Shown: one piece after another, positions 10,283-52,683 of the stretch | Numbering within the stretch: the first letter of the stretch is position 1 | How the letters are laid out: the number at the start of each line of letters is the position of its first letter | IMG/VR virus record: IMGVR_UViG_3300045972_000791 | Coordinates: 1 to 64,000 of that record | Direction: 5' to 3' (one strand) | Length of the DNA: 64,000 bases | From: a virus | Notes under the pieces: generated by a model | Seen by the model: only the letters and a program-made list of their open reading frames with translations | What the model was told of the DNA's origin: nothing | Databases searched by the model: none | Translations under genes and position numbers: made by a program

Positions 10283-10481
10283 GTACTTCCTCCTCTGTTA
10301 TAATTTCGTTCCATATAATAGCTATGGATTCAAAGACATGTCCTGTATTTCCTTTTAATGCTTCTTGTAGAGGATCTTCAAATGGACCATGAAGTGTATC
10401 AAATTGTATCTCTTCTTCACGATACTTATCTTCAACAAGTTTTTTTAGTGCATCATATTGCTTTGTATTTAGTGCAGTCAT
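10275..10481 (-). CDS. small hypothetical protein, 68 residues
   Basis: Acidic protein beginning MTALNTKQYDALKKL. ATG at 10481 is preceded by GGAG within the previous gene's last codons; four codons upstream another ATG is less well placed. It overlaps ku by 8 bases. Function unknown. Confidence 0.6.
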   Translation of the reverse strand: MTALNTKQYDALKKLVEDKYREEEIQFDTLHGPFEDPLQEALKGNTGHVFESIAIIWNEIITEEEVHG

Positions 10482-11401: not shown

Positions 11402-11820
11402 ATCGGTCGCCTAATTTGAGACATTTGATTTTGAATATTTGTCTGCAACTGCATTATCTGTGAATTAAAAATCATGTCCATTGACCTGATCATTGCTCCA
11501 CTCATTCCCATACTAATAACTTCTTTTACAGCAATCATTACTTCTTCTGGATGTTCATCAACATACTCTTTAACTACCTTATTAACTGTAGGCTGAACAC
11601 ATTCTTTAAGAATTTCTTCTAAAAGAGTTGGTCCGTCTATTGTTTTGTAATAGTCTCTTGGATCTTTAATTCTACTCCTTGTAAAGAATACATCCTGCAT
11701 TCCTTTATCAACTAGCTTCTTGATATCTTCATCAGATAATAAATCTCCAATACTATCCTTAATCCTATCTTTCATCTTCTGTTCAAATGTCTTACTCTCT
11801 GCTGGTAAATTTTCACTCAT
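11398..11820 (-). CDS. hypothetical protein, 140 residues
   Basis: Highly helical, acidic N-terminus and a Met/Gln-rich C-terminal helix (MQLQTNIQNQMSQI). Overlaps its neighbours by four bases on both sides, so it is tightly coupled with the metallophosphoesterase and the deaminase. Function unknown. Confidence 0.55.
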   Translation of the reverse strand: MSENLPAESKTFEQKMKDRIKDSIGDLLSDEDIKKLVDKGMQDVFFTRSRIKDPRDYYKTIDGPTLLEEILKECVQPTVNKVVKEYVDEHPEEVMIAVKEVISMGMSGAMIRSMDMIFNSQIMQLQTNIQNQMSQIRRPI

Positions 11821-12326
11821 AACTTTCTCCCTTTCTTTTCAATTATACTTCTTAGACTGATTGGTGCATACAAATGTTCCATAAATATTAGATGATGTTT
11901 TAAAGTTCCACCTCCTGTGTGCCTAGCATTAATATTATTATGGAGATGACCATGGATATTTAAATCATAATCTCCATCTATTGCTGGACGATGAGTCATA
12001 AGAACTCTCTTACCAAATATATTAAGTAATATTTCGTCACCTACAAAATCCCATCCATGCTCAAGATACCATGATGAACTTTTCTTATCATGGTTTCCTC
12101 TTACTAACCACATTTTACCTTTACATGATTCTCTTAATCGAAGATTCCAATACTCATCCTTATAAAATGCTACATCTCCAAAGTGTATTAATACGTCATT
12201 AGGCATGACTGTTTTAGTTATTTTGCTGAGTGTAGTCTCTTCGAATCCAATAGGTCGTCCTCCATATTCTTCTGTATGAAGGAGATTGTGTCCTAAATGA
12301 GTATCTGCAACACCCCAATAATTCAT
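11817..12326 (-). CDS. calcineurin-like metallophosphoesterase
   Basis: Hydrolyses a phosphoester or phosphodiester with a dinuclear metal centre; substrate unknown. Motifs seen in order: DTHLGH (near 8-13), HFGDVAF (near 48-54), RGNHDKK (near 75-81), MTHRP (near 110-114) and NIHGHLH (near 123-129), which together make the complete active site. 169 residues. First gene of the leftward deaminase/Ku block, with TAAGGAGG before the ATG. Confidence 0.85.
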   Translation of the reverse strand: MNYWGVADTHLGHNLLHTEEYGGRPIGFEETTLSKITKTVMPNDVLIHFGDVAFYKDEYWNLRLRESCKGKMWLVRGNHDKKSSSWYLEHGWDFVGDEILLNIFGKRVLMTHRPAIDGDYDLNIHGHLHNNINARHTGGGTLKHHLIFMEHLYAPISLRSIIEKKGRKL

Positions 12327-21884: not shown

Positions 21885-22688
21885 ATGAGAAAATATGAGT
21901 CTATAATTGGTAAACAATTTAATAGATTAACTGTATTATCTGAAGACAAACTTGTTGGTAAACAAAGATATTTCAATTGTAAATGTGAATGCGGTAATAT
22001 TACCTCAGTCCGTATGTCTAGATTAAAAAATAAAAACAAGCCAGCTATATCTTGTGGTAAATGTAAAGATAGTATTATGGAAATAAAATTAGTTGGAAAG
22101 AAATTTGGGATGTTAACCATATTATCTCTTGATTTCAATAGTCCTATGAGTGGGATTAGAGGTGGTCCACCGAGAAGAGTTATTTGTAAATGTGAATGTG
22201 GAACAATAAAATCAATACCGTTATATTATTTAAAAGATACAAAATCTCCCACATTATCATGTGGATGTTATAGAGATTTTATAAAAACTAGTCATGGAAT
22301 GAGTAAAACACGTATATATAGTATTTGGCAGGGAATGAGAGATAGATGTAATAATCCAAAAAATGTTTCATATCCTAATTATGGTGGTAGAGGTATATCA
22401 TATTTAGATAAGTGGGAAGATTTTGAAGAGTTCTATAGAGATATGGGTGATCCTCCAACTGATAAACATGAACTTGATAGAATTGATAATGATAAACATT
22501 ATACAAAGAAAAACTGCCGATGGTCTACTCATAAAGAACAGCAGAATAATAAACGTAATAGTCATTTTATTGAATTTAATGGAAAGAAACAAACTCTTAC
22601 TCAGTGGTCAGAAGAAACTGGTATAAAAAAGGAAACATTACGATATCGGTTATATAATAATTGGCCACTGGAAAAGGCTCTTTCATGA
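21885..22688 (+). CDS. zinc-ribbon HNH-type homing endonuclease (long form)
   Basis: 267 residues. Two tandem zinc-ribbon modules (each GK-x-F-(N/G)-x-LT(V/I)L then CKCECG; the second ends SCGC), then the HNH-like core (NYGGRGISY, DMGDPPTDKHELDR, NCRWSTHKEQ), then the HTH tail (TLTQWSEETGI ... LEKALS). Good GGAGAGAG ribosome site. The stop overlaps the start of the terminase gene (ATGA), so the terminase is probably translated by coupling to this gene. This is a free-standing homing gene next to the intron-interrupted terminase. Cleavage site not predictable here. Confidence 0.85.
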   Translation: MRKYESIIGKQFNRLTVLSEDKLVGKQRYFNCKCECGNITSVRMSRLKNKNKPAISCGKCKDSIMEIKLVGKKFGMLTILSLDFNSPMSGIRGGPPRRVICKCECGTIKSIPLYYLKDTKSPTLSCGCYRDFIKTSHGMSKTRIYSIWQGMRDRCNNPKNVSYPNYGGRGISYLDKWEDFEEFYRDMGDPPTDKHELDRIDNDKHYTKKNCRWSTHKEQQNNKRNSHFIEFNGKKQTLTQWSEETGIKKETLRYRLYNNWPLEKALS

Positions 22689-30306: not shown

Positions 30307-31071
30307 ATGGCCGATAATATGTTTACGCTTCAACCAGACTCCAATGAAGCCTATGGGGTTTCTGAGTTTGGTAATATGGAAGGTAATCCAGACTATTACA
30401 GAGGATGGTTTAACACTGTTCAACAGCACGTTGATCCACTTATCACTGGCTATGCATTTGTTAAGTGGTATGATCTTCCTACTTGGGTTACTGATTTCAA
30501 CAGTCAGTTTACTAACTTAACTGAGAAAAACCTCAGAGCTTTTGACTTGCCTGGAGATATTGAGATTAATAAAATCTCAAGTCAGGCTGGTTTCTCTACT
30601 GAGGAGACTGAGTTTGCTGGCAGCATTGGTAAACCAACTGGCTTTCAGATGACTCATAAAGAGTTTTCAGGTAGTCCTATTCGTCATGCATATTCACATT
30701 GGGTTTCTGGCATTCGTGATCCTAAGACTGGTGTTGCAACTTACCCACTATTCTCAGGTCTTGAGTATGCTGCAGTCAACCATACTGGTAGCCTTTTGTA
30801 TGTTATGACCCGTCCTGACGCTACAAACTTTGATAATGCAGCTATTATTGAATTTGCAGCTTACTTTACTAATGTTATGCCTACCAAGATTCCTCTTGGT
30901 CACTTGAACTTCTCTGCAGGTAGTAATGATGCACAGGAGATTCAGATGAGCTTCACAGGTATGATGCACTTTGGTCAGTCTGTCACTGCATTCGCTGCAG
31001 CTGAAATGCAGACTACTATTAAGGGTGTACACGGTAATTATCAGTACGATAATAACGTTGAATTCCGTTAA
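30307..31071 (+). CDS. tail tube protein (probable)
   Basis: 254 residues, highly expressed codons, GGGGGTAA before the ATG. C-terminal half includes YFTNVMPTKIPLGHLNF and EIQMSFTGMMHFGQSV, in the order strand-loop-strand seen in tube proteins of contractile tails. Directly follows the sheath gene, the standard order. A terminator of the shared type follows. Confidence 0.65.
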   Translation: MADNMFTLQPDSNEAYGVSEFGNMEGNPDYYRGWFNTVQQHVDPLITGYAFVKWYDLPTWVTDFNSQFTNLTEKNLRAFDLPGDIEINKISSQAGFSTEETEFAGSIGKPTGFQMTHKEFSGSPIRHAYSHWVSGIRDPKTGVATYPLFSGLEYAAVNHTGSLLYVMTRPDATNFDNAAIIEFAAYFTNVMPTKIPLGHLNFSAGSNDAQEIQMSFTGMMHFGQSVTAFAAAEMQTTIKGVHGNYQYDNNVEFR

Positions 31072-31078
31072 GATTAAT

Positions 31079-31117
31079 AAAATTAGCTCTATACCTTATG
31101 GGTATAGAGCTAATTTT
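31079..31117. terminator. bidirectional terminator, tube/portal junction
   Basis: 17-bp stem containing GCTCTATACC with a 5-base loop, between convergent tube and portal genes; T-run on both sides. Confidence 0.85.
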
Positions 31118-33408
31118 TAATTTATATCTTCATCATCAGATGACGGTGCATCTTCATCTGTTCCTGCATTTTCATCATCACCGCCACCACCTACATCCAT
31201 TCCTTCAGCAGGTTGGTCTGCGGCTTCACCTTCTTTGTTATTTAGATCTTCAATAGCTTTCTTCTTAGTAGCCTCTTGATTAGCCTGAATGATAGATGCT
31301 TCGAATAGTTCTTTAAACTCTTCCCATTCAACACCTGGCATTAGCTTCTTAAGTGACTCAATCCTAAAGATTCTCTTAGCATTTGGATCGATATCTACAT
31401 CACCTATCATAGCTGCAGTTATGAACTCTAAGATTGAGTTAACATTGTTAACCATATCATTCATAGATGCAGATAACAAAGTCATAGGCTTAGAGAACTT
31501 AACTTCCAACTTATCCAAGTCACCTTCTTCATATTCTTCAAGTGAAGAATATTCAGACTTATAAATCATTCTAACCATTTGAGTAAATTGCTCTGCAAAA
31601 ACAGATTGCCATGATATAACTGATCGAACAAAACGTCCATTCATCATAGTAAGTGATCTTGCAAATTCAACTTCATCTGAATAGCCTAAGAATGCTGCAG
31701 GAATACCCATACCAGATATCATAGACCTTCTAAGATAATCTAAGAAGTCATTCTCAATAGATACATCCTGTCCAGGTAATGCATCAACTTCAATAGTCTT
31801 TTCACCATTCTGCATTGGAATATAAAGGTCATTAAATGTACCTACTGAGTTCAATGCAGATGTGATATCACCTAAGTCTGAAGTTTTGAATTCTTTAGAC
31901 TTAATAGATTTAACGAATGATTGAATAGCTCCAGGTGTATCTTCATCTAAACCTGTTTCAATATAAAAGATTCGTTTCTCAGGTGCTCTTACCAATTTCT
32001 GCATAAGAGTAGATATTAAACTAGCTAGATATAGTTTTGCGGTAAATAATACTGGACTATATGCTGAACGACCATATATACTATCTCCTTCTGATCTAAA
32101 GTGAACCATTTTATCAGGAGGAATGTATGTTATACGTAGTTTCTGATCTTTATCGTAATTTGTTTTAAGAATACCATAAATAATATTCTTAAACTCAGGA
32201 TTATCCTTAACAAACTTACGATCTATCTTACTAGCTACATTCTTACTAAAAATATTAGATATTAGTCTAAGTTTAGCACCTTTGATTTGGTCTGCAACAG
32301 GGTCAGGAGCACCAATATTTGTGGTGATCAGGTCTCTAAAACGGTTGTTACCTAGAGAGTGAGTAGTACCAAATTGTGTATTTGCCCCTATTTGATCAAC
32401 ATAGTAATACCCATAGTCAACGTTGTCCAGATTTAGCTTAATAACACGCTGTGGGTCAAGAATACGTAGAATAGAACCAGATAATTCAAATGTACCATCT
32501 TTAGTCTCTTTATCTTTAATCTCTTTTGCATCATTACCTGCTTCATATAATAATACAGAAGGGTCTCGTGACATTATAACTGATTCTTGAAAGAATATTT
32601 TAATCTCTTCAGCCCAATCTATATTATCTTCACTTTTCTTACCAGTATTGGTAATGTCTTCTATTTCTTTAAATTCATTCAACAGTACCTTATCATCATC
32701 ACTAACACTGGCTTCTGTAAGAATATGGTTGGTATAGTACATTTCTTCATATTCTCTAGTTTCATCTCTGAATGCATTTTCCTCTTTTAGCATCTTACCT
32801 ATTTCATCACCATAACCAAGAACGGCTACAAAGTTATCGCCTTTCTTCATAGTATTACGAATGATTTTAGGTTGGAGGCGTTCAAGTAGATATTTCTTTT
32901 TTATTTCAGTAAGTCTTTTAGCTACTTCATTCTTCTTTTGTTCAGTAGCAGTTACATTAGTATACTCAATGTTAAATGAAGTTTTTGTAAAGTCATCAGG
33001 AGATATGATATTATCAACGAATGTGTCCAATGCCATAGCCATCTGAGGAATTAAATCATAGATTTGATCAAAGCTATGATATAGTTGAACACGGTCTTTT
33101 TCACTATAAAAAATATCGTTTACAACACCAGTGTCAGCATTATCAACTAGATCATTTACATTAACTTTCCCTTTTCCTTTTATACTCTTTCTACCACCAC
33201 CGCCTCCGCTCTTTAACATTTCTACTCGACTAAAGAACTCAGTGATATTATTTCCAGTCTCCCTCTTGTAAGCAGAGGAAATCTTACTCATAGTATCTCT
33301 TACTTTGTCGTATAGATCATTATCGGCTTTAGCTGAAGTTCCAAACATTAATTCTGAGTTAGCATCTTGTAGATCTTTTATTGTTTGAATTTCTTTTTTA
33401 TCAGACAT
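31117..33408 (-). CDS. portal protein (T4 gp20-like)
   Basis: 763 residues. Ring protein at the head vertex through which DNA enters. The C-terminal half carries the gp20 pattern: RIFYIETG, then LYIPMQNGEKTIEVDALPGQ, and later DYLRRSMISGMGIPAAFLGY with a helical end. N-terminal ~130 residues include a Gly-rich spacer. Ribosome site GGGGATC. Encoded opposite to the capsid, terminase and tail genes. A strongly acidic C-terminus (Glu/Asp) may contact the terminase or be disordered. No cleavage site identified. Confidence 0.8.
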   Translation of the reverse strand: MSDKKEIQTIKDLQDANSELMFGTSAKADNDLYDKVRDTMSKISSAYKRETGNNITEFFSRVEMLKSGGGGGRKSIKGKGKVNVNDLVDNADTGVVNDIFYSEKDRVQLYHSFDQIYDLIPQMAMALDTFVDNIISPDDFTKTSFNIEYTNVTATEQKKNEVAKRLTEIKKKYLLERLQPKIIRNTMKKGDNFVAVLGYGDEIGKMLKEENAFRDETREYEEMYYTNHILTEASVSDDDKVLLNEFKEIEDITNTGKKSEDNIDWAEEIKIFFQESVIMSRDPSVLLYEAGNDAKEIKDKETKDGTFELSGSILRILDPQRVIKLNLDNVDYGYYYVDQIGANTQFGTTHSLGNNRFRDLITTNIGAPDPVADQIKGAKLRLISNIFSKNVASKIDRKFVKDNPEFKNIIYGILKTNYDKDQKLRITYIPPDKMVHFRSEGDSIYGRSAYSPVLFTAKLYLASLISTLMQKLVRAPEKRIFYIETGLDEDTPGAIQSFVKSIKSKEFKTSDLGDITSALNSVGTFNDLYIPMQNGEKTIEVDALPGQDVSIENDFLDYLRRSMISGMGIPAAFLGYSDEVEFARSLTMMNGRFVRSVISWQSVFAEQFTQMVRMIYKSEYSSLEEYEEGDLDKLEVKFSKPMTLLSASMNDMVNNVNSILEFITAAMIGDVDIDPNAKRIFRIESLKKLMPGVEWEEFKELFEASIIQANQEATKKKAIEDLNNKEGEAADQPAEGMDVGGGGDDENAGTDEDAPSSDDEDIN

Positions 33409-33417
33409 AGTGATCCC

Positions 33418-34473
33418 CTAGTTTACATTCATATATCTCTTACATGCAGATGACAAGCTTATTATATAGCTTTTCAAGAAGTCCATCATCCCAATAATAT
33501 CGCTTATAATTGGTCCAACGTTTATAATTAAATCATTGTTGCTATACAATCCAGACTTCAATGCAATCCAATAAACGAATAATAATGATGACAGTTTACT
33601 TCTAGTTGATGTCGAATAATCAATATCGATAAATTTTTCTATTAAACTATCTATATCTGACTTAGTTAGTATATCATTATTGAATGAGATAATCCCTCTT
33701 ATTTGCTTCACATTTTCGATGGTATTATTATATGGGTAGTACCCATTAAATATATTCTCCGTGAATGAATAATCTCTAGCTAATAATGATGGTATATCAT
33801 TAATCTTAATGATTAATTTATATAGTTCGTTATTATTAATTCCTTCAACGATTCCTCTACCAAGAAATATATCAGAGTATAATTTTTTTGCAAATAACTT
33901 AGCATTAGCATCAGTTACATCATTGAAAACATCTACTGAGTTATCTGGAAAGATACTTGGTAGATCTATTTTTTCATCAACAGGAATATTTGTTCCATTA
34001 TACAATGGTTCAATTAGAGATTTAAAATCAGTATCAATCTTAGTTTCATTATCATAGTATAATCCACTAGACATTGATGCATATTCAGCAGTAAAGGCGT
34101 TAGTTAATAAATCAGACCACTTAATATATTTAAATGAATTATTAGCTGCTGTATACTCCATAATATATTTATCTAGCTGAAGAGTTTCTGTACAATATTG
34201 ATTTATATCAAATGTAACTTCTGCAGCAGTATCACTACTGTTGTATACAAATGTAAGTTCTCTATCTCTTTGATCTAAAAAGTTCACGACTTCATAGTCA
34301 TTTATAATAGGAAGAGACATCAATTCATCAATACCAATTACGCCATCACATAGATTATCAATACATCTCTGATAATTTTCTGGCAGCATATTCATTAGTC
34401 TCAGAAAGACACTCTTGTTATACTTATTTAGATTTATATTAAAGAAGTTACGAAGCACTTGTTCATCTTTCAT
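33418..34473 (-). CDS. unknown protein, paralogous N-terminal domain (copy 1)
   Basis: 351 residues. N-terminal ~70 residues share a pattern with the next two genes upstream: a helix, then DGVIGIDELMSLPII, then a hydrophobic helix. The rest is Asn/Asp/Ser-rich helical sequence. Located just upstream of portal, co-directional, nine bases away. Likely virion-associated by context; no family recognised. Confidence 0.55.
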   Translation of the reverse strand: MKDEQVLRNFFNINLNKYNKSVFLRLMNMLPENYQRCIDNLCDGVIGIDELMSLPIINDYEVVNFLDQRDRELTFVYNSSDTAAEVTFDINQYCTETLQLDKYIMEYTAANNSFKYIKWSDLLTNAFTAEYASMSSGLYYDNETKIDTDFKSLIEPLYNGTNIPVDEKIDLPSIFPDNSVDVFNDVTDANAKLFAKKLYSDIFLGRGIVEGINNNELYKLIIKINDIPSLLARDYSFTENIFNGYYPYNNTIENVKQIRGIISFNNDILTKSDIDSLIEKFIDIDYSTSTRSKLSSLLFVYWIALKSGLYSNNDLIINVGPIISDIIGMMDFLKSYIISLSSACKRYMNVN

Positions 34474-34481
34474 AATTTCAC

Positions 34482-35513
34482 CTATACTAAAGATAATTTT
34501 GTTATTGAATATGCTGATTCTGTGATTATACTTACATTAGCCATAAATTTCTTAAAATTATCCATTTCTGTAGTAGTTGGTTTAAAGTATTCAGATATTC
34601 TTAAATCATACATATATGGCATGAGATATTTATTTATGAAGTATGTATGATAACTTGTTGCAAAATCATTTACATTAAACTCAAATGTAGAATTTTTCAA
34701 TGATGTAATATAATTCTTTATTTTATTCTGAACTGTATCAGTTGTCACATCATTAGTAACTGCAGTTATCATTGAGTTGATAGCCCTACTAATTAAAGAC
34801 TGGGACGTACACTCTAAGTCATATAAACGGAATACTCTATTTTTATAGCTAACTGATCTTAAAGCAAATCCATATACTCCACTCGCTTCTAATAATGTGA
34901 AATCACTATATGGTTTTTCCATAAAAATAGGTTCAGTATACAACTTAATTACTTCATCATATATTTTATCGATTATTACACTATTACAGTCTTCTTTAGA
35001 AGTTGATAGCTGATCCATAAAGTAACTACCATCTCCATCTTGATTAAAGAAATTAGATAATGCTGATCTAACATCTACTTCAGCTAATGCATAAGATCCA
35101 TTATATGTTTTAGTCATAAATGGATTTACAATCCAGTTTTCACGTCCAGCTAATATAAGTGAATAATACTCCTTAAATGGAATAAACTTTTTAGATCTGA
35201 AGTCAGGAATACTACTATATACTTTACCACTAATGATATTTAATTCAAATAGATTCTTAAGATCAGTATATCTTTGTAGATAATCATTATCACTATTATC
35301 TATTAATATTTCAACTGAGACAGCATTTAAATCTGGTAAGGCATATAGTTCATCCATTGTAATATAATGATCTTTTAATGCACTAATAGTCTTAGTGAAA
35401 AGATCAGTGCCTAATATCGATAGTCTACTTATGATTGCATAATCTCTACTGTTTTCAGTTAGTTCTAAGCCTTCAATATAACTTAAAACTTCTTCGGATG
35501 TTAAAAGTGTCAT
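34482..35513 (-). CDS. unknown protein, paralogous N-terminal domain (copy 2)
   Basis: 343 residues, similar length to copy 1. Segment DHYITMDELYALPDLN matches DGVIGIDELMSLPIIN of copy 1. The C-terminal part is helical and polar. GGAG from the preceding gene's last codons serves as its ribosome site. Function unknown. Confidence 0.55.
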   Translation of the reverse strand: MTLLTSEEVLSYIEGLELTENSRDYAIISRLSILGTDLFTKTISALKDHYITMDELYALPDLNAVSVEILIDNSDNDYLQRYTDLKNLFELNIISGKVYSSIPDFRSKKFIPFKEYYSLILAGRENWIVNPFMTKTYNGSYALAEVDVRSALSNFFNQDGDGSYFMDQLSTSKEDCNSVIIDKIYDEVIKLYTEPIFMEKPYSDFTLLEASGVYGFALRSVSYKNRVFRLYDLECTSQSLISRAINSMITAVTNDVTTDTVQNKIKNYITSLKNSTFEFNVNDFATSYHTYFINKYLMPYMYDLRISEYFKPTTTEMDNFKKFMANVSIITESAYSITKLSLV

Positions 35514-35516
35514 GAC

Positions 35517-35987
35517 TTACTCCATTTTACTTGATAACTTAGCTGCTTCCAGTAGTCTAGCATTTTCTAACTGAACTTGTTTGTTATCAGATATACGTGT
35601 TATAGTTGTTATTTCAGGTTCTACCAATACATCATCTATTATACTAATAAATTTGAGTCCTGTAACTTTTTCATATTCAGAAATTACTTCTAGTCTTTTA
35701 TTGCTTTCTTTAGCAAAATCTCTATACTGGATATTATCAACAATTTTATCAGCTAACAATGATTCTAATGCCTTTTTCTGTTTAACTCCAGACATCTTAT
35801 ATTTTTTTCTATTACTTCTTTTGATAATTGGAATTAAATCAGCTAGTACTATTCTATCAAATAGTAGCTCATCCATGATAGGACGATATACTTCGTAAGG
35901 CATTGATAAAAGACTATATACAGCAGATATATTTTCTTGAGTTATTGGAAGTTTGTCTATCCTATCTCTTAGTTCTACATAATCCAT
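35517..35987 (-). CDS. unknown protein, paralogous N-terminal domain (copy 3), short
   Basis: 156 residues. The N-terminal part (YSLLSMPYEVYRPIMDELLFDRIVLADLIPI) follows the same helix-turn pattern as the two downstream genes; the remainder is basic then coiled-coil-like. Starts after a TAGGTGAC ribosome site; first gene of the portal operon after a terminator. Function unknown. Confidence 0.55.
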   Translation of the reverse strand: MDYVELRDRIDKLPITQENISAVYSLLSMPYEVYRPIMDELLFDRIVLADLIPIIKRSNRKKYKMSGVKQKKALESLLADKIVDNIQYRDFAKESNKRLEVISEYEKVTGLKFISIIDDVLVEPEITTITRISDNKQVQLENARLLEAAKLSSKME

Positions 35988-36003
35988 AAGTCACCTATAA
36001 AAA

Positions 36004-36031
36004 GAGAAGAGAGGATAGATCCCCTCTTCTC
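36004..36031 (-). terminator. hairpin before portal operon
   Basis: 11-bp G/A-rich stem with one A-C mismatch and a 6-base loop; followed on the minus strand by CTCTTTTTAT. Confidence 0.5.
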
Positions 36032-36036
36032 CTATA

Positions 36037-36711
36037 TTAGAAGTCGATAGCTATAAAGCTCTGTTTGGATGAATACGACTTAGATTCGCATTCTATTTCA
36101 CACAATAGTTTGTTATCCAAAATATCATATAGAGTTATGTGGTGCTTAGCATCTTCTTCAGGTTTTACAAAAAGTTTTTGAGCAAGTCTAAGCTTCCAGT
36201 GTTTACTAGTAGTACCATATTCATTAACAAGAATATGTTTTTTAGTAAGAATTACATCTGCAAATTCGGATTGACCACATTCTTCATAGAACCCATCTAT
36301 ATCTCTATATTCGCAAAGTATTTCACCATTATCTTTCAAGTTATTATACATCGTTTCAATTCTTCGTATATTTTTCAAATACGACTTATCAGTAAGCGAT
36401 GTATATAATGGATATTTTTCACCGTGTATAACTAGATTTTCATCAAAGCTAATACCAGTCAATGGTTCTTCTTTCTTATTCTTAAAGACTTGAAATAACT
36501 CATCACTATTTACAGATACAATTTTAGTATCTAAACCTTTATGAAAGTCAATTAGTGTATATGAATAACATTCATCTGGAAGAATATATGCTTTTCCTCC
36601 AAATGCATACCACATCTTATTATTAAATAATAATTTTTTAGCTAGTTGATTCATATTATTTAAATTTTTAAGATGATCCTTAAATGTAATGACCTTTTCT
36701 TTTTTAGCCAT
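36037..36711 (-). CDS. hypothetical protein, 224 residues
   Basis: Starts MAKKEKVITFKDHLK. I use ATG at 36711 because GGTGG lies in the preceding gene's end; an upstream in-frame ATG is less well supported. Mixed alpha/beta, with one possible Cys-Asp pair (DGFYEECGQ), no motif recognised. Ends at a hairpin. Confidence 0.55.
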   Translation of the reverse strand: MAKKEKVITFKDHLKNLNNMNQLAKKLLFNNKMWYAFGGKAYILPDECYSYTLIDFHKGLDTKIVSVNSDELFQVFKNKKEEPLTGISFDENLVIHGEKYPLYTSLTDKSYLKNIRRIETMYNNLKDNGEILCEYRDIDGFYEECGQSEFADVILTKKHILVNEYGTTSKHWKLRLAQKLFVKPEEDAKHHITLYDILDNKLLCEIECESKSYSSKQSFIAIDF

Positions 36712-37000
36712 TTTTTCCACCCATAACATTCTCGCTATCTAATAAATCAATTATTTTTTGTTCAGAAGGGTCTTCACACCAAAAGGCATTTTTCAGCTTA
36801 AATATTTCTTTCTCTAAACGGACAATGCGATTAGAAGCGCATAACACTGTTCTAATACATTTAGCACTTCCATCTTTCATAATAATACTTATTGATCCGC
36901 AGTTATACTTTACTGAATGGGTATATTTATTACCCCCTATTGTAAGGGGGCTTTTCCTGATTTCTAATAGCTCAGATTTACATGATGGGCATATATCCAT
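36704..37000 (-). CDS. small zinc-ribbon protein, 98 residues
   Basis: N-terminal CPSC and a later NCGS cysteine make a plausible partial zinc site, then a helical C-terminus. Starts at 37000, overlapping the stop of the polymerase N-half (TAATG), with GGAGG inside the polymerase's last codons. Function unknown. Confidence 0.55.
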   Translation of the reverse strand: MDICPSCKSELLEIRKSPLTIGGNKYTHSVKYNCGSISIIMKDGSAKCIRTVLCASNRIVRLEKEIFKLKNAFWCEDPSEQKIIDLLDSENVMGGKNG

Positions 37001-38739
37001 TACACAACCTCCAATAGTTCTTGTAAGTCTGGTAAATTAAAATATTTTTTACCAGTAGCAATAAAATCTTTAGCTTGAATAGAATCAATAATTTTAGGTA
37101 TTTCATCATTGAGTTTATTCTCTAATTTTAGTTGACTTTTATTATTATATACATATACATCCTCAAACTGTTCAACTAAGAAAGCCTTACCAATCTGAGT
37201 AAATGAATCAATATTAAAACCTTGAATAATACTTGGATAGAGAGATGCAAGGTCAAGGTCACAAGTCTTTTCAAATATCTTATTTGATTTGATACCTAAG
37301 ACTGGAATGCCTGTATGTGCAAGAAGTTTAGGATTAGCAACAAATGCACCACGAAACTTTTTCTTTGCATCATCTTTATCTTCATCTTCTTTAGATTTCC
37401 ATTCATCACTACCATAATCCTGATTACGATTATTAGATAGCACGTATCCTTGGTCTCTAAAGAATCTATCAGCCATATTACGAAGACATATTGTCTTTGT
37501 CATAGCTTTGTTCATACGAGTTTCAGTCATCAAACTCAACTGATAAATAAGATCAGTATCACCAATCTTCTTTTCAATCAAGTAACATCCAATAACGTCC
37601 ATCGCATTATATTCCATAAACTTTAAGAAGTTAGAGTATGGAAATTTCTTCATATCATCAACAACTTCATCCTTACTCATACTAAGTTCTTCAGTAAGTA
37701 CTGCATCTAACATGTATGAGTCTTTTTTCTGCATTGACTTACGAATAACTGCATACTGAATCATTTGGTCAAGAAATATTACATCTGAAGTAATCTGTAA
37801 CTGATCTTTCTTTTCAGATATATCTTTCGCTCTAGTATCAGTATAGTAATATACCTGTTTATAATCTACTTCTTTTGGACACATTATAAGAGCAGGAATA
37901 CCGCCTAGAATCTTTATTCTATTTATAACAGTTTGACCGTCAAATGAAAGGTTCCATGCATGAAGTATATCTGGTTTACATCTTTCATTAAGAAGCTTAA
38001 AGAATGCTTTAATAAGGTCTAATTCTTTATCAAAGAACTCAATTTCTATCTCTAGATTTGGACACTCATTTTTAAACTTCTTTTGAATAGTTTTAGTATA
38101 CTTTTCAATTTGAGTATCTTCAAATATCCCAATCAATGTATTCTTTGGATTCCTCAGAACGAATTGATATAATATATTCTCTTGTTGATCATAATATCCT
38201 ATAAGGTTGATAGGACTAGGTGCTTCTTCAGCAATAGGAAAACCTGGTATATTGGATGAGTCAACCTCGATATCCCAAAAACCTTTAGTAAGAGATGCAG
38301 TTAGATCAACTTCAGACTTATATTTAGATAGATATCTACTTATAGTGTGATCACTAATATCCACATCTGAACCATGTAGAATTGGATCAAGGTGTAACTG
38401 TTTCAACTTACCAAAGTGTTTCTCTTGCAGACATGCCTCATAAAAGTCCATCTCACCAAGATATTTAGCTATCTCACGCATATACTCCCAATACTTACAG
38501 GTGACAGGAAATGTATCTTCAATAGGTACAAATAACGGTGGTGGATCCAAATACTGGTCTACTTTATTCTGTTTAGTGACTCTAAAAGTTATAGTAGGAT
38601 CAGCTATGAATCTCATTCTCTTTTCACCATCGATTTTTTCAACTATATATAAACCTGTATGTTTCAGAGGTAATTTATTTCCATCTGAATCTTTACCGCC
38701 TCTTACTGTTAAAACATTGATCAACTGACGAACTGGCAT
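37000..38739 (-). CDS. family B DNA polymerase, N-terminal half (exonuclease plus palm motif A)
   Basis: 579 residues of a replicative polymerase. 3'-5' exonuclease motifs: GFWDIEVDS (Exo I), ILHAWNLSFDGQ (Exo II) and YNAMDVIG (Exo III). Palm motif A is DLDLASLYPSII near residues 495-506, with the first catalytic Asp. It then stops about 77 residues later; motifs B and C are absent here and are encoded on the opposite strand at 42194-44116. No intein motif at the end. AAAAGGAG precedes the ATG. The two chains must associate to make an active enzyme. Confidence 0.9.
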   Translation of the reverse strand: MPVRQLINVLTVRGGKDSDGNKLPLKHTGLYIVEKIDGEKRMRFIADPTITFRVTKQNKVDQYLDPPPLFVPIEDTFPVTCKYWEYMREIAKYLGEMDFYEACLQEKHFGKLKQLHLDPILHGSDVDISDHTISRYLSKYKSEVDLTASLTKGFWDIEVDSSNIPGFPIAEEAPSPINLIGYYDQQENILYQFVLRNPKNTLIGIFEDTQIEKYTKTIQKKFKNECPNLEIEIEFFDKELDLIKAFFKLLNERCKPDILHAWNLSFDGQTVINRIKILGGIPALIMCPKEVDYKQVYYYTDTRAKDISEKKDQLQITSDVIFLDQMIQYAVIRKSMQKKDSYMLDAVLTEELSMSKDEVVDDMKKFPYSNFLKFMEYNAMDVIGCYLIEKKIGDTDLIYQLSLMTETRMNKAMTKTICLRNMADRFFRDQGYVLSNNRNQDYGSDEWKSKEDEDKDDAKKKFRGAFVANPKLLAHTGIPVLGIKSNKIFEKTCDLDLASLYPSIIQGFNIDSFTQIGKAFLVEQFEDVYVYNNKSQLKLENKLNDEIPKIIDSIQAKDFIATGKKYFNLPDLQELLEVV

Positions 38740-38839
38740 GTGTTCTCCTTTTGTTCAGTATATACGATACTATGTTGTCTATATTTTTAAATTAAACATT
38801 TTATTATGTTATTCATTTTATGGTGTGAGAGAGAAAACT

Positions 38840-39562
38840 ATGTCAGATGACAATCTTTTTGAAGAAATGTTAACTGCTATGGAAAGGGAAGGACAAGCTA
38901 CTGAAGAACTGTATACTGAGTTAAAAGAGCATTATGATACTATAAAGCTTAATAGTCGTAGGATGCAGGGCAGCTTAACATTCCTTTCCAAACAAGCCGA
39001 AAATCTTATAGCTTTAAGACAGGCTAATCAACAAATTATTAAAGCAATGGTGGATATGAAACACAAACAGTTTGGTAATACTATGAAGACTAAGATGTTA
39101 TCTGTTAAACAAGAAACGGCTGATGAAGATGGTATTCCATTTAAAGTTGTTAAATATCTTATAGATGCACTTAAAGTAGACTCTAATAATATAATGAGTA
39201 TAGAGGGTGAATTAGTCAATAACCCTATTACTGATGATGATAGATTATTAGAAGGTAGATTAAGTGAATTGTCTGATGAAGAGACAACTGAAGACAGCAT
39301 CATTCCAGCTGAAATTGATGAATCTACTATTGAACTAGTATGTGATGAACTAGGTAGTTATCATATAGTTGCTAATGGATATATTATATGTGATGATGAT
39401 TATGATCTACCTAAAGATTCACCTACCTATGATGTAGGTAAGCATGGGGAGTTGAGGGCTTTTAATTCTGATGGAAAAGAGATTAAAATAGTCAGGTCTG
39501 ATTCATTAGTATTTAGAGAGCCTGAAGAGGATGGTGAAATAGATGAGGAAGATGATGACTGA
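38840..39562 (+). CDS. acidic hypothetical protein, 240 residues
   Basis: Starts MSDDNLFEEMLTAM with GAGAGAG upstream; the longer open frame back to 38738 overlaps the polymerase start and is rejected. Helical N-terminal half, acidic C-terminus (EEDGEIDEEDDD). Divergent from the polymerase N-half. Function unknown. Confidence 0.55.
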   Translation: MSDDNLFEEMLTAMEREGQATEELYTELKEHYDTIKLNSRRMQGSLTFLSKQAENLIALRQANQQIIKAMVDMKHKQFGNTMKTKMLSVKQETADEDGIPFKVVKYLIDALKVDSNNIMSIEGELVNNPITDDDRLLEGRLSELSDEETTEDSIIPAEIDESTIELVCDELGSYHIVANGYIICDDDYDLPKDSPTYDVGKHGELRAFNSDGKEIKIVRSDSLVFREPEEDGEIDEEDDD

Positions 39563-40756: not shown

Positions 40757-40797
40757 ATGCTCTATTCCAATTAAGGAATAGGGCATATTTTTTTTTT
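40757..40797 (+). terminator. intrinsic terminator with T10 run
   Basis: 12-bp stem ATGCTCTATTCC (one G-U) and a 6-base loop followed by ten T. Ends the rightward operon from 38840. Confidence 0.82.
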
Positions 40798-41608
40798 AAT
40801 CCTTACCATATAATGCTTCTTCTACGGACCATCCTCTTTTTAGACGACCACGAATAGTGCTACGATGTATACCTACTTCTTCTCCCCACATAGCTAATGA
40901 TTGAATTTTTCCATTATACTCAATATTATGATTGTTAGATCTATTATTTTGCTGTTCTTTCATTGTAGACCATTTACAGTTCCTCTTTGTATAATGACCA
41001 TTACTTTCTATTCTATCTAATGTATGTTTATCTGTAGGTGGATCACCCATATCCTTATAGAATTCTATAAAATTTTCCCATCTAACTGCATAAGATACAC
41101 CTTTTCCACCATAATTAGGATTATTAGAGTTACATCTATCTTTCATCATAACCCAAATATGATAAATACGAGTACCCTCCATTCCATGTTTTGTATTGGC
41201 TTTAGATAACATTTCTTTTCCATAGCATCCACATGATTGTGTTCGTCCAAGATTTAAACGACTTCCATCTACTTCTTTAGTATTTCCGCAATCACATTGA
41301 CACATATAATGCCAATGTAAATTTTTTAATATAGTGGGATTTAATACTATTAATCTCCCAAATCTTCTACCAATCATTTTACTATGGGTTCTAATGTTTC
41401 TTGCTGTATTTTCTTCTTTAATTCTTTCTTTATTAAAGCAACCACATGATGATGTTTTACCGGATCTAAGACGAGTTCCATTATATTCTGATTCATTTCC
41501 ATTACAACTACATCTACATTTATAATACAATTCCCCATATCTGTTATTAGCTTGTTTTAAAACAGTTAACCTTCCAAATACTTTTCCAATCATATTTATT
41601 TTTGCCAT
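40796..41608 (-). CDS. zinc-ribbon HNH-type homing endonuclease (long form)
   Basis: 270 residues. Two zinc-ribbon modules (KVFGRLTVL ... CRCSC ... SCGC; RRFGRLIVL ... CQCDCG ... SCGC), HNH-like core (NYGGKGVSY, DMGDPPTDKHTLDR, NCKWSTMKEQ), HTH tail (LAMWGEEVGI ... SVEEAL). Start chosen at 41608 (GGAGGGTACAAT upstream) over an in-frame ATG 10 codons earlier. Lies between the two halves of the polymerase. Family and motifs clear; cut site unknown. Confidence 0.85.
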   Translation of the reverse strand: MAKINMIGKVFGRLTVLKQANNRYGELYYKCRCSCNGNESEYNGTRLRSGKTSSCGCFNKERIKEENTARNIRTHSKMIGRRFGRLIVLNPTILKNLHWHYMCQCDCGNTKEVDGSRLNLGRTQSCGCYGKEMLSKANTKHGMEGTRIYHIWVMMKDRCNSNNPNYGGKGVSYAVRWENFIEFYKDMGDPPTDKHTLDRIESNGHYTKRNCKWSTMKEQQNNRSNNHNIEYNGKIQSLAMWGEEVGIHRSTIRGRLKRGWSVEEALYGKD

Positions 41609-41644
41609 ATTGTACCCTCCTAATAAACTGTTACTCAAGAGGAA

Positions 41645-42193: not shown

Positions 42194-44116
42194 ATGGACT
42201 TTATTAATGAGTGGGCTAATCAAGCAGCAGAACAGATTGCAATTATAAAAGGTATTCCGTATGATCAAAAACTTATAAATAAAATACTAAAAGTTGGTAA
42301 GGCTCAGCTTCAGACAAAAGAGATGATTATCCATAATAATCTTACTCAGGTAGTCGAAGAAGGTACTACTGAAGATCTTTTAGATTATTATTTGGGTGAT
42401 GATAAACCTCTTATGACTGGATATGGAGTTCTTTATCAACAACATGAAGGTTCTCTCAACCTTCCAGCTAAGATGTTAGCTTATTTAGGTTCAGAACGAA
42501 AAGTAGTAAAAAAGAAAATGTTTGAACATGTAAACGACGTTGATAAAGGCATATATAATGCTTACGATACCAAACAAAAGGTTATTAAAGTTCTAGCCAA
42601 TAGCTTCTATGGTGTTATGGGTCAAAAGAGTTTTATCTTTCATAATGAGTATAATGGTCCAGCAATTACATATACTGCATATCAGATCATTACTAACTCA
42701 ATGTTATCTATTGAAGCGTTTATGGCTAATAATGTTAGATTTAAAAACTTTGATCAGATTATTCAATTTATTACTAATAGTTTAAAAACTACTCCTAGAA
42801 CTCCTATTGAACAGATAATAGGTAGTAAAAAAGTTTTTAAATGCCCTAATATAATTGAGTATTTAGTTAGTATGTCTGATTTTGATCTAACAGAAAAAGA
42901 GATAGATCTTCTAAATACCGCAGTTGGTGGATTAGTTCATGAAGAGATTTGGTTGTTATACTTTAAAAGGAATTTATTTGAATTTCTAAAACAGCCTAAA
43001 ATAATTGATATGCTAGGTGATTGTTTAGATGGAGATTTTGTCAATCCAGATGAACCACCTGAAGCAGTTAAACCTACAATAGATGCACTCTATGAATTGT
43101 TAGTAGACTATGTATCATATGACTATTTATATGAAGATCGTTTTGAACGCTCACATGAGTTAGTTAGACAAGTTATCCTTGTAGTTGATACCGATTCTAA
43201 CTTTATTTCACTAATGCCATTCTATGATTTCATGGCTGATCAATTTGATCTAGGTGACAAAGATGACAAAGAAGCATATATACCTGTGTGTAATATTATT
43301 ACTCATATATTGAGTAGATATATCCATCGTACCCTCCATCTATTTGCAAATAATATGAACCTCACAAAAGACAATCAGAAATTTCTTGCGATGAAATCAG
43401 AGTTTCTTTTTTCAAGAGTTCTTCTTACTAATAATAAGAAACAGTATGCTGCAAATATTGTGGCTACTGAAGGTAATGTTCTTGATAAACCAAAGCTTGA
43501 ATTGAAGGGTATTTCCATAAAAAAGACAGGTCTTAATAAAGCTACACGTACATATTTTACTAAAATACTTGAAGATATGATGCTCAATGCTAAAGAGATC
43601 GATATTCCTGCCATATTGAGGAAATATTGGGAGTACGAGCGTGCTATTGTGAAGGGGCTTACTGAAGACCTTTCTACACAATTTTGTACACCTGGCAAGT
43701 ACTCTAGCATAGATTCGTATAAGAACTATGCGCAGATGGATGTTGTTCGTGGTACAATGCTGTGGAATTATATGAATGAAAGTAGACCTATTGGAAATCA
43801 CAGTAAGATAAATAAAATTAAACTTAGAAGTATGACTAAAGATGAATTGAAAGAAGCTATGAAAGATTTTCCTGAAGATTTAGAAGCATTATTAGAGCTT
43901 ATGGAAAAAGATGAAGTATTTAAAAAATATGGATTAGATATTTTAGCTCTACCAAAAGATTTAGAGACAATTCCAGATTGGGTTAGACCTCTTATGGATG
44001 TTAGTACTATGGCTAGTGATATTATGAGAAATGCAATAGTTCTTCTTGAAAGTTTAGGAGTACAATTACTCACTATTAGAAGTAAGAACTACTATAGTAA
44101 TATTCTTCAGATGTAA
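42194..44116 (+). CDS. family B DNA polymerase, C-terminal half (palm motifs B and C, thumb)
   Basis: 640 residues. Contains motif B KVLANSFYGVMGQ (near 134-146), motif C VVDTDSNFIS (near 330-340; catalytic DTDS), a KKQYA segment and a thumb region with KLELKGISIKK. It has no motif A or exonuclease. The matching N-half is at 37000-38739 on the other strand. AAAGGAGT precedes the ATG. Length and motif order make the pair a complete polymerase with no missing catalytic part. Terminates at a strong bidirectional hairpin. Confidence 0.9.
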   Translation: MDFINEWANQAAEQIAIIKGIPYDQKLINKILKVGKAQLQTKEMIIHNNLTQVVEEGTTEDLLDYYLGDDKPLMTGYGVLYQQHEGSLNLPAKMLAYLGSERKVVKKKMFEHVNDVDKGIYNAYDTKQKVIKVLANSFYGVMGQKSFIFHNEYNGPAITYTAYQIITNSMLSIEAFMANNVRFKNFDQIIQFITNSLKTTPRTPIEQIIGSKKVFKCPNIIEYLVSMSDFDLTEKEIDLLNTAVGGLVHEEIWLLYFKRNLFEFLKQPKIIDMLGDCLDGDFVNPDEPPEAVKPTIDALYELLVDYVSYDYLYEDRFERSHELVRQVILVVDTDSNFISLMPFYDFMADQFDLGDKDDKEAYIPVCNIITHILSRYIHRTLHLFANNMNLTKDNQKFLAMKSEFLFSRVLLTNNKKQYAANIVATEGNVLDKPKLELKGISIKKTGLNKATRTYFTKILEDMMLNAKEIDIPAILRKYWEYERAIVKGLTEDLSTQFCTPGKYSSIDSYKNYAQMDVVRGTMLWNYMNESRPIGNHSKINKIKLRSMTKDELKEAMKDFPEDLEALLELMEKDEVFKKYGLDILALPKDLETIPDWVRPLMDVSTMASDIMRNAIVLLESLGVQLLTIRSKNYYSNILQM

Positions 44117-44117
44117 A

Positions 44118-44154
44118 TAATCTCGCATATACCTATATGGTATATGCGAGATTA
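44118..44154. terminator. bidirectional terminator, polymerase/HD-GYP junction
   Basis: 16-bp perfect stem TAATCTCGCATATACC with a TATAT loop between convergent genes. Confidence 0.85.
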
Positions 44155-45108
44155 ATCTAGACTTAATGTATACTCTTCCATAGCACTGTATAGCTCTTTA
44201 CTAATTGCCCTACCTACAAATTGATCTTTCATTATTTGTAGAGCTTCTTCAGGAGTGTGTCCTTTTCTATACGGCCTATCAGCAATTAGAGCAGAGTAAA
44301 CATCTGCAGTATTAATGATTCTAGTGTTTCGACCTATTTGATCGCCTTCTATACCCCTAGGGTATCCTCTACCATCTAGTCTCTCATGATGATCCCTAAT
44401 ATTACTTAGGATTACTTCATTAGAAATAGTCTCTTTTATATAATCATACCCAAAAACCGTATGATCCTTCATTATATCGTACTCTTTATCAGTTAAACTC
44501 TCAGGCTTATTTATAATCTCGTCAGGTATAAATATTTTACCTATATCGTGTAGTATTGCTCCTGTACCTAAGTCAGATAATTCATCGTGATCTAAATTAT
44601 ACATTCGATGAGCAAGTACTAGTGATAAGGTTACAACATGTATGGCATGAGCATACTCATATCCATTATGAACAATGATTTTACTGATTTCTTTAAATAC
44701 ATTAGGATTATTAAGACATGATGTTATTATACTATCTACCAATGTCCTACACCTATCTATATTACTACTGACTGCAATTGGGTTATTATAAATTTCAGAT
44801 ATATAGTTTGTAGATACTGTAAATAAAGCATCTATTTTCTTTGTAACTGAATAATTCTTATTTGCAACTATATTCTCTAAAACTTCTTCCGTCTGACGGG
44901 TAAAAACTTCCATATCACCATATCTTAAATATATGAACTCAGTACTAGATCTATTTAATCTCTCAATATCTCTTCTAGTAAATAATTCCCCTGCCGGTTT
45001 GTATAAGATATAATTATCTCTATTCTTTATAAAGACTGGGAAGTTTAAAGGAAAATCATCAATAAATGATGATACAAGGATACTTTTATATAAATTATCC
45101 CTACTCAC
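44152..45108 (-). CDS. HD-GYP domain cyclic-dinucleotide phosphodiesterase
   Basis: 318 residues. N-terminal ~60 residues fit the small domain that precedes many bacterial HD-GYP domains (YILYKPAGELFTRRDIERL). The HD-GYP core is complete: AILHDIGK (HD), DHTVFGY, then HHERLDGRGYPRG (the HHExxDGxGYP signature) and TADVYSAL ... RPYRK. HD-GYP enzymes hydrolyse c-di-GMP and some hydrolyse 3'3'-cGAMP. Start is GTG at 45108, six bases after AGGAGCTAAAT, with an overlapping ATG-TGA. Probably moved from a bacterial host. Confidence 0.9.
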   Translation of the reverse strand: MSRDNLYKSILVSSFIDDFPLNFPVFIKNRDNYILYKPAGELFTRRDIERLNRSSTEFIYLRYGDMEVFTRQTEEVLENIVANKNYSVTKKIDALFTVSTNYISEIYNNPIAVSSNIDRCRTLVDSIITSCLNNPNVFKEISKIIVHNGYEYAHAIHVVTLSLVLAHRMYNLDHDELSDLGTGAILHDIGKIFIPDEIINKPESLTDKEYDIMKDHTVFGYDYIKETISNEVILSNIRDHHERLDGRGYPRGIEGDQIGRNTRIINTADVYSALIADRPYRKGHTPEEALQIMKDQFVGRAISKELYSAMEEYTLSLD

Positions 45109-45165: not shown

Positions 45166-45196
45166 ATCTGCATATACCTATATGGTATATGCAGAT
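45166..45196 (-). terminator. terminator after ChaB-like gene
   Basis: 13-bp stem ATCTGCATATACC, TATAT loop. Near-identical in core sequence to the hairpin at 44118. Confidence 0.7.
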
Positions 45197-46859: not shown

Positions 46860-47063
46860 TTATTTAACAACAGCTACATTAGAAGCCTGTTGTCCTTTCT
46901 GTCCTTGAACAATATCAAGAGTTACCTTATCGTTCTCTTTAAGAGTTTTAAAACCATCACCTGCGATTGCGGAAAAATGGACGAATACGTCATCTTTACC
47001 CTCAACTGAGATGAAACCAAAACCTTTTGCCTCATTAAACCACTTAACTGTTCCTTGTGCCAT
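46860..47063 (-). CDS. csp: cold-shock domain protein
   Basis: 67 residues, full CspA family length. RNA-binding motifs RNP1 KGFGFISV (near 13-20) and RNP2 VFVHFSAI (near 26-33) both present, with the N-terminal GTVKWFNE and C-terminal QASNVAV. Binds single-stranded RNA/DNA and may stabilise phage mRNA or melt structure. GGAAAAAGC precedes the ATG. Single-gene transcript with its own terminator. Close to host versions, so recent host origin is likely. Confidence 0.93.
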
Positions 47064-51172: not shown

Positions 51173-51874
51173 TTATTTTCTTCTATTAGCTCTCTTCTTT
51201 GCCTCAGCCTCCTTTATTTTGAGTTGTTTTACCTTCTCTTTTTCTTTCTCTTTTTTCTTGTTTTTAACAATCTTTTCTTTAGCTTTGTTATACTCTACCA
51301 TCTTCTCATCGAATGTTTTGATGGATTTGAAAAGTGCCTTCCAATTGACTTTTCCGTCAATATGTTTTGTTATCTCATTTTTAGACGTTAAATTATATTC
51401 CTTCATACTTAATGCAGCGAATGTAATACTTTTTTCAAAACCCCATGTCATAGAAGGATTTCTTACATCGGGTGGATCTAACAACGCTTGTTTTGGAAGC
51501 TTACCGATAAGTTTATCTACTAACCATTTATCTCTTTCAAGTACATAACAATACGTGTATACGAAATTTGGAGAGTTTGAAAAGAAACGAATACCATACT
51601 CACTTATACTCTTACTTTGTTTAGCCTCATTATTTAATGGTGTAAATACTAATACAACATCATAATATATATTATATTCTTCAGATGGAATAGAAAATGA
51701 AAAGATATAATCGTCTTTCTCAGTATATACTGAAAGTTCCATTGGCATTTTAAGAAAAGCTTTAGCTGCCCTAGTTCTCATATTCTCAATTATTTCATCA
51801 CGCCTTGCTATATGTGCAGAACCTCTACCTGCAGGATTGGTTAAAAGTTGTTTATAATTAATTAAATCTTTCAT
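51173..51874 (-). CDS. unknown protein with Lys-rich C-terminus, 233 residues
   Basis: Starts MKDLINYKQLLTNPAGRG. The ATG overlaps the TGA of the homing endonuclease gene (ATGA), and the endonuclease's terminal Gly-Gly-Arg-Arg codons supply GGAGGAAGAAG as ribosome site. An in-frame start 15 codons earlier is rejected. Mixed alpha/beta body, then ~40 residues of Lys/Glu repeat. Function unknown. Confidence 0.55.
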   Translation of the reverse strand: MKDLINYKQLLTNPAGRGSAHIARRDEIIENMRTRAAKAFLKMPMELSVYTEKDDYIFSFSIPSEEYNIYYDVVLVFTPLNNEAKQSKSISEYGIRFFSNSPNFVYTYCYVLERDKWLVDKLIGKLPKQALLDPPDVRNPSMTWGFEKSITFAALSMKEYNLTSKNEITKHIDGKVNWKALFKSIKTFDEKMVEYNKAKEKIVKNKKKEKEKEKVKQLKIKEAEAKKRANRRK

Positions 51875-52683
51875 CTTCTTCCTCCAAGTGGAACAGATAA
51901 AGCTTCTTCTACAGTCCATCCTGCATATATTCTGTTTCTTACAATACTAGGATCCATATTATTAAGTCTAGCTAGTTTAGTAATAGGCGCAGTAATTCCG
52001 TTATAAGTTTCAATTCTATTATTTCTTTTATTTAAAGCTTGTTCAGAATAATTAGCCCATGTACAATTATCTTTAGAATATGGTTTATTATTTTTAACTC
52101 GTTCTAAAGTTGCATCTTCTGTTGGAGGATTACCCATATCTTCATAGAATTTTTCAAAAGAATTCCATGAAGTATCATACTTTATACCACGACCACCATA
52201 TCGTGCATATGCGCTGTTTTTCGGATTGTCACATCTTTGTCTCATACTAGACCATATACTGTAAATTCTTGTTTTTGTCATACTATGTGTTGTAGCAATA
52301 TTTGCCATAGTTTCAGATCTGAAACATCCACATGACTTTGTATGATTAGATTTAAGTTTTCCACCTTGTACAATACAATTATTTCCACATTTACAAAGAC
52401 AATTCCAAAATTTATGCTTACTATCAGAGTGTGAAAATGATGTCACTACCAATTTATTAAATTTTTGTCCTACTAAGTCATATCTATTACGAGTTAATGT
52501 ACATCCACATGATAATGCAGGTGTATCTTTATGAGTTAATCTAATTGTAGGAAAATTTTTTATATTTCCACATTCACATTTACATTTATATATAGCATTA
52601 TTACCAATTGTACCTTCTCTAGATACCACTATAAGTTTTCCAAACTGTCTTCCAATCATTTTAGAATCATTAGATTTTCCCAT
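51871..52683 (-). CDS. zinc-ribbon HNH-type homing endonuclease (long form)
   Basis: 270 residues. Two zinc-ribbon modules (RQFGKLIVV ... CKCECG ... SCGC; QKFNKLVVTS ... CKCGNN ... SCGC), an HNH-like core (YARYGGRGIKY, DMGNPPTEDATLERV; the second motif is more diverged than in the sisters), and the HTH tail (MDPSIVRNRIYAGWTVEEAL). Its ribosome site (GGGGGAG) lies in the right arm of a large hairpin, so translation may be repressed when folded. The stop overlaps the next start (ATGA). Confidence 0.85.
   Translation of the reverse strand: MGKSNDSKMIGRQFGKLIVVSREGTIGNNAIYKCKCECGNIKNFPTIRLTHKDTPALSCGCTLTRNRYDLVGQKFNKLVVTSFSHSDSKHKFWNCLCKCGNNCIVQGGKLKSNHTKSCGCFRSETMANIATTHSMTKTRIYSIWSSMRQRCDNPKNSAYARYGGRGIKYDTSWNSFEKFYEDMGNPPTEDATLERVKNNKPYSKDNCTWANYSEQALNKRNNRIETYNGITAPITKLARLNNMDPSIVRNRIYAGWTVEEALSVPLGGRR

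Follow-up and report, generated by a model that had tools for sequence, protein, structure and literature searches.

A two-domain HD-GYP gene in a jumbo phage belongs with a bacterial family tied to cyclic-dinucleotide signalling

HD-GYP enzymes of jumbo phages, together with a proposed role against nucleotide-based immunity, have already been published (Iyer et al. 2021, PMC7824862; for example, QDB70412.1), and our full-text literature searches found no experimental study of a jumbo-phage HD-GYP. The closest bacterial systems are PmGH of Persephonella marina (4MCW), a trinuclear phosphodiesterase of cyclic di-GMP (c-di-GMP); V-cGAP3 of Vibrio cholerae (5Z7C) and PmxA of Myxococcus xanthus, which act on 3'3'-cyclic GMP-AMP (3'3'-cGAMP); and Bd1817 of Bdellovibrio bacteriovorus (PDB 3TM8/3TMB). 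Here we analyse an HD-GYP gene in a 64,000-nucleotide stretch of viral DNA (the window), positions 1 to 64,000 of the 67,153-base IMG/VR record IMGVR_UViG_3300045972_000791. As in the cases of Iyer et al., this is an HD-GYP in a jumbo phage, as judged from the surrounding genes; its product shares the HD-GYP catalytic domain with V-cGAP3 and PmxA and the two-domain layout of Bd1817 along the entire length. We think it somewhat probable that this protein is a phage-borne cyclic-dinucleotide phosphodiesterase that changes the signalling state of the host during infection. New are the Bd1817-type two-domain form in a phage, the donor family (two-domain proteins of Geobacter-like Desulfobacterota, here called Geobacter-type orthologs), the second-shell changes shared with that family save for one lysine, and the family's linkage to riboswitches.

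The open reading frame (ORF) is intact and complete, with 318 codons, and is divided as follows.

44152-45108, minus strand: HD-GYP protein gene, 318 amino acids, GTG start, stop codon within the downstream hairpin (ORF, Pfam, phmmer and fold match)
44923-45108, minus strand: beta-rich N-terminal domain spanning residues about 1-62, also present in Bd1817 and the Geobacter-type orthologs (model secondary structure)
44674-44922, minus strand: helical linker, residues about 63-145 (model secondary structure)
44155-44673, minus strand: HD-GYP catalytic domain, residues 146-318 (Pfam, ligand alignment)

Pfam family HD_5 (PF13487) matched residues 160-295 at E 1e-28, with 100.6 bits against a curated cut-off of 27.2, and HD (PF01966) matched at E 3e-15, with 56.8 bits against a cut-off of 22; a PHROGs search with the protein gave zero matches. 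Consistent with a two-domain protein, phmmer aligned residues 7-281 with Bd1817 (E 1.8e-15), and residues 1-140 were 30-36% identical to four Geobacter-type orthologs. An AlphaFold2 model built from 18 aligned sequences had a mean predicted local distance difference test score of 88 and a predicted template-modelling (TM) score of 0.83; it was template-free, yet Bd1817 may have been among the training data. In a Foldseek search with this model, all Bd1817 structures ranked first (TM 0.81 over 310 columns), and VIA-align superposed it on Bd1817 with Z 30.6 and a root-mean-square deviation of 3.8 over 305 residues. Against the HD-GYP domains of PmGH and DvhD, the Z values were 19.6-21.1 and covered the catalytic part only. 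PmGH (Z 19.6) thus has the same catalytic fold, but a GAF domain where the phage protein has the Bd1817-type N-terminal domain. V-cGAP3 differs in another way, carrying a second, degenerate HD domain. The viral predicted-structure library BFVD held no full-length fold match at E <= 0.001.

All seven metal ligands of HD-GYP enzymes align in the phage protein (H154, H187, D188, H216, H240, H241 and D269), as do the conserved lysine, K191, and the motif HHERLDGRGYP at residues 240-250. The loop at residues 240-258, HHERLDGRGYPRGIEGDQI, has the form HHExxDGxGYPxxxxxxxI. The seven ligands and the K225 equivalent are shared with PmGH. In that enzyme, replacing D183, K225 or D308 by alanine did as much harm as losing a metal ligand, and E185 bridges the third iron (PMC4159591). 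The phage residues at these positions are N148 (D183), Y150 (E185), K191 (K225) and S272 (D308), so that only one of the three second-shell residues, the lysine, is kept. Where the trinuclear, PmGH-type subfamily has E/D-T-G, the phage protein has Y150-E-Y; from Y150 we assign it to the Y/F subfamily of PMC4159591, with a predicted and probably dinuclear site.

The substitutions are not peculiar to the phage. Among 32 Geobacter-type orthologs (L166-L169 and L180-L207), the D183 position is N in 29, the K225 position is M in every one and the D308 position is S or C in every one, and the metal ligands are kept in all 32 except for D269 in a single protein. By contrast, 86 bacterial HD-GYPs fetched from outside the family mostly have D at the D183 position (75/86) and D or E at the D308 position (82/86). 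The phage protein therefore shares two derived substitutions with the family, N148 and S/C272, and has kept or regained the lysine. V-cGAP3 resembles the phage protein in having a non-Asp residue at the D183 position, S in a phmmer alignment, but has D at the D308 position; because this 3'3'-cGAMP enzyme has S there, the residue is not indispensable everywhere. By its residues, the phage active site is not a textbook one, and with N148 and S272 in place of residues needed in PmGH, catalytic activity is less certain than the motif suggests. The original prediction of a complete HD-GYP with an intact signature and HD pair, preceded by an N-terminal domain of the bacterial HD-GYP kind, therefore holds for the Pfam scores, the ligands, K191, the GYP motif and the full-length match to Bd1817 in sequence and fold, but 'intact' does not extend to the second shell. 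Loss of metal ligands in close relatives, which would have spoken against it, did not occur.

To place the protein, we compared it with bacterial HD-GYPs, as the original prediction had proposed. Campylobacterota yielded full-length relatives at E about 1e-44, and four Desulfobacterota genomes yielded them at 1e-60 to 1e-69; within the order to which one of these four belongs, 78 of 141 genomes had a match at E <= 1e-50. The best match in this order reached E 2.5e-71 (39% identity, residues 3-311). Campylobacterota were ruled out as donor, their best E of 4e-44 being far weaker. We call the order Geobacter-like because all eight genomes tested encode the short Geobacter-type pilin, PilA, at 74-86% identity. 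In a tree of 43 two-domain proteins, the phage HD-GYP joins the Geobacter-type family with support of 100/99, as the first branch and on a long branch; this clade comprises the phage protein, 22 orthologs and L172, and nesting of the phage protein inside the family is not firmly rejected (approximately unbiased test, p 0.05-0.08). It also has the full-length layout of the family, whose members are 33-42% identical to it over the full length. The family is chromosomal, and its members carry Met in place of the phage K191.

A wider tree that took in 71 other viral HD-GYPs sets the phage protein apart from nearly all of them, with L090 and L117 as the next branch (support 87); the viral HD-GYPs sampled, a set without QDB70412.1, fall outside its clade. 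Because it stands apart, we regard it, on this tree, as an acquisition separate from those of the other viral HD-GYPs sampled. No relative covering the HD-GYP gene turned up when IMG/VR was pattern-scanned for the HD-GYP protein, for the DNA polymerase half and for a 26-nucleotide exact stretch of the gene, and scans with the head protein and protease returned nothing beyond fragments of this phage or of a sister phage. The sole tblastn match among named phage isolates, MW495066 ('Microcystis phage MaAM05'), was rejected as a phage homologue for its bacterial-looking neighbourhood: its stretch 30640-39071 in MW495066.1 (L160) carries trxB, coaD, secE, nusG and rplK and resembles a bacterial chromosome. 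Another large viral contig (L131; 126,686 bases), from the same sample as the sister of the window phage, has a stand-alone HD-GYP of 222 amino acids at 9755-10423.

Is the gene truly phage-borne, as had been claimed? Over 99% of its length, the major head protein encoded in the window shares 39% identity with its counterpart in Bacillus phage AR9/PBS1, and the C-terminal DNA polymerase half is 32% identical over 100%; also recognisable are a portal, sheath, prohead protease, primase, RNase H, RuvC-like resolvase, GroEL and phage RNA polymerase subunit. From this gene content, and from the major head protein and divergent split family-B DNA polymerase that it has in common with that group, we conclude that the window is a fragment of an AR9/PBS1/phiR1-37-like jumbo phage, which bears out the claim. 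The HD-GYP gene lies between the convergent polymerase half on one side and, on the other, a chaB-like gene and the prohead protease gene on its own strand. Its G+C content (31.2%), third-position G+C (20.4%) and codon usage are all typical of the window phage, which argues that the gene is a long resident and not a recent accident.

We then asked what signals the bacterial family works with, using Rfam scans of the 32 ortholog loci with 1.5-kb flanks. A GEMM-I riboswitch (RF01051) lies upstream, on the same strand, at nine of the 32; because the orthologs are related, these nine are not nine independent events. Gaps to the gene are 88-841 nucleotides, five of them below 200, with small ORFs intervening in the longer ones, and GEMM-I was found at no other position of the 32 loci. 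The ligand-contacting unpaired base, model position 11, which we take to be G20, is G in eight of the riboswitches; the ninth (L196) has A, which is the cGAMP-selective form by the exchange described in PMC6456294. On the contact base, the set would thus be eight of c-di-GMP type and one of cGAMP type. Geobacter uses c-di-GMP and 3'3'-cGAMP for surface-associated growth (PMC6456294). The presence of GEMM-I upstream of orthologs places the family within c-di-GMP/cGAMP circuitry and ties it to housekeeping cyclic-dinucleotide signalling. An Rfam scan near the phage HD-GYP gene gave no match, and six 14-kb regions around bacterial orthologs, compared by eye, had no conserved neighbourhood. At two loci (L190 and L192, 1219-1350 in each), a c-di-AMP (ydaO) riboswitch immediately follows the HD-GYP ortholog and precedes a long same-strand ORF of 624 amino acids.

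These observations can be assembled into a mechanism. In the distant past, the phage lineage would have acquired the two-domain gene from the family that is widespread today among Geobacter-like Desulfobacterota. The gene would be expressed in infection as a self-contained unit, with its own ribosome-binding site and hairpin terminators on both sides; the protein would bind two metal ions through H154, H187, D188, H216, H240, H241 and D269 and cleave host cyclic dinucleotides (c-di-GMP and/or 3'3'-cGAMP), altering surface attachment, pili, exopolysaccharide or respiration. The basis is the intact gene, its phage context, the domain architecture, the ligand set, the phylogenetic position and the riboswitch linkage of the orthologs, from which we infer catalysis, substrate, host, timing and benefit to the phage. 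Upstream GEMM-I at nine of 32 orthologs favours this reading because such a riboswitch is expected of an enzyme under feedback control by that signal, and further support comes from the confident full-length model of the phage protein, which matches Bd1817 as a whole and c-di-GMP phosphodiesterases in its catalytic domain. An unlikely, more specific version is that the protein is active, belongs to an uncharacterised HD-GYP family whose second shell has been rebuilt (N/S), and is a phosphodiesterase dedicated to 3'3'-cGAMP or c-di-GMP signalling in Geobacter-like bacteria that respire metals; with it, the phage would switch the host between surface-attached and free states or silence a cyclic-dinucleotide alarm during infection.

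Several points weigh on the other side. N148 and S272 replace D183 and D308, which PmGH needs for activity; Bd1817, whose structure is the closest of those solved, does not act on c-di-GMP (PMC8177086; PMC4159591); and Y150 predicts a two-metal, not a three-metal, site. The host, probably a Geobacter-like bacterium, is inferred from the affinities of two genes only, HD-GYP and cold shock, and no spacer or prophage link to a host was found. The phage cold-shock protein (46860-47063, minus strand) is about 75% identical to proteins of the Geobacter-like order, its best or equal best match, with one Bacillota genome at 73%; this supports the host assignment but does not prove it. When a 20-kb piece of the phage was compared with the 141 genomes, the matches listed were to the cold-shock gene only, with two candidates scored per genome, which leaves room for spacers.

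The rebuilt active site and the inactivity of Bd1817, which has the same architecture, also fit an HD-GYP with weak or no catalysis that binds metal and nucleotide as a regulator or decoy, or one whose substrate has shifted. D183, K225 and D308 are each needed in PmGH, and the orthologs have changed all three and the phage two; however, the metal ligands and GYP motif are conserved across the family, the phage retains the lysine, and the D183 position is S in V-cGAP3, which was deposited as an active 3'3'-cGAMP phosphodiesterase. We consider this alternative doubtful. Counter-defence is distinctly unlikely: here, the enzyme would destroy the cyclic oligonucleotide of a cyclic-oligonucleotide-based antiphage signalling system (CBASS), a type III CRISPR system or a related one, so that the phage escapes abortive infection. 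This role has been proposed for jumbo-phage HD-GYP enzymes in general (PMC7824862), V-cGAP3 is among the best PDB sequence matches, and 11 of the 141 genomes of the closest order do have CBASS-type SMODS cyclases above the cut-off. Yet these are 8% of the genomes, whereas more than half of the order has the nearest relatives of the phage protein, which are signalling proteins encoded on the chromosome and placed under cyclic-dinucleotide riboswitches; no defence or counter-defence gene was recognised beside the HD-GYP gene, and no similarity call links it to known anti-CBASS families. The cyclase counts make counter-defence possible but not favoured. Thus, of the two functions in the original prediction, the lowering of a cyclic-dinucleotide signal is favoured by the GEMM-I linkage, and the anti-CBASS role is possible but unsupported.

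We also weighed whether the gene might be chance cargo without effect, or a bacterial fragment joined to a phage contig in assembly. The gene and its junctions are present in a single assembly, because a second-sample contig that matches over 11.3 kb at 99.99% identity ends at 45405 and misses the gene by 0.3 kb, and HD-GYPs in nominal phage records are often bacterial contamination, as in MW495066. This explanation is nevertheless very improbable, given that the gene is flanked by the phage DNA polymerase gene on one side and the phage chaB and prohead protease genes on the other, that its codon usage is phage-like and its G+C fraction is 0.31 against 0.52-0.61 in donor-type genomes, that its reading frame is intact although identity to any bacterial copy is only about 38%, and that a hairpin with the same core stands on either side.

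Those hairpins and the ribosome-binding site frame the gene as follows.

44118-44154, no strand: perfect 16-bp hairpin, a probable two-way terminator, between the convergent DNA polymerase and HD-GYP genes, overlapping the HD-GYP stop codon
45115-45119, minus strand: ribosome-binding site AGGAG, 6 nucleotides before the GTG of the HD-GYP gene (read from sequence)
45166-45196, no strand: second perfect hairpin, between the HD-GYP and chaB-like genes

The hairpin at 44118-44154 folds at -26.3 kcal/mol, with z of -8.1 and -7.2, and both hairpins carry an identical 21-nucleotide core, CATATACCTATATGGTATATG, which occurs at these two places only in the window (0 expected). Removing the stretch between them would leave one hairpin between convergent polymerase and chaB genes, as in an ordinary two-way terminator. 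Judged from this genome by itself, the HD-GYP gene may have entered as a cassette at or with this terminator. The AR9-type late promoter motif AACA-N6-TW was absent from the 120 nucleotides upstream of the gene, and it was not enriched upstream of genes generally (12 of 65, against about 0.13 per 120 nucleotides).

HD-GYPs of giant phages have been predicted to act against nucleotide-based immunity, yet almost none has been assigned to a donor family; the present one can be. Since its nearest bacterial copies are under cyclic-dinucleotide riboswitches and reporter strains for c-di-GMP and 3'3'-cGAMP exist for Geobacter-like bacteria, it can be tested directly whether phage action goes beyond disarming defence to a resetting of housekeeping signalling. 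The comparison also exposes a widespread bacterial HD-GYP family in which all metal ligands are kept and three second-shell residues thought to be needed for catalysis are replaced.

Elsewhere in the window, a calcineurin-like phosphoesterase (11817-12326, minus strand) is a second candidate nucleotide-signal enzyme of the same phage. The family-B DNA polymerase is split between 37000-38739 (minus strand) and 42194-44116 (plus strand), with an HNH endonuclease and other ORFs in between. Similar HNH-type ORFs, probably homing endonucleases and alike at their start, lie at 2766-3377, 21885-22688, 40796-41638 and 51871-52683; the second and third of these share 72% identity over about 318 bases. 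A Ku-like end-binding protein (9482-10282, minus strand) is encoded near an ATP-dependent DNA ligase (7550-8404, minus strand), a possible phage end-joining pair.
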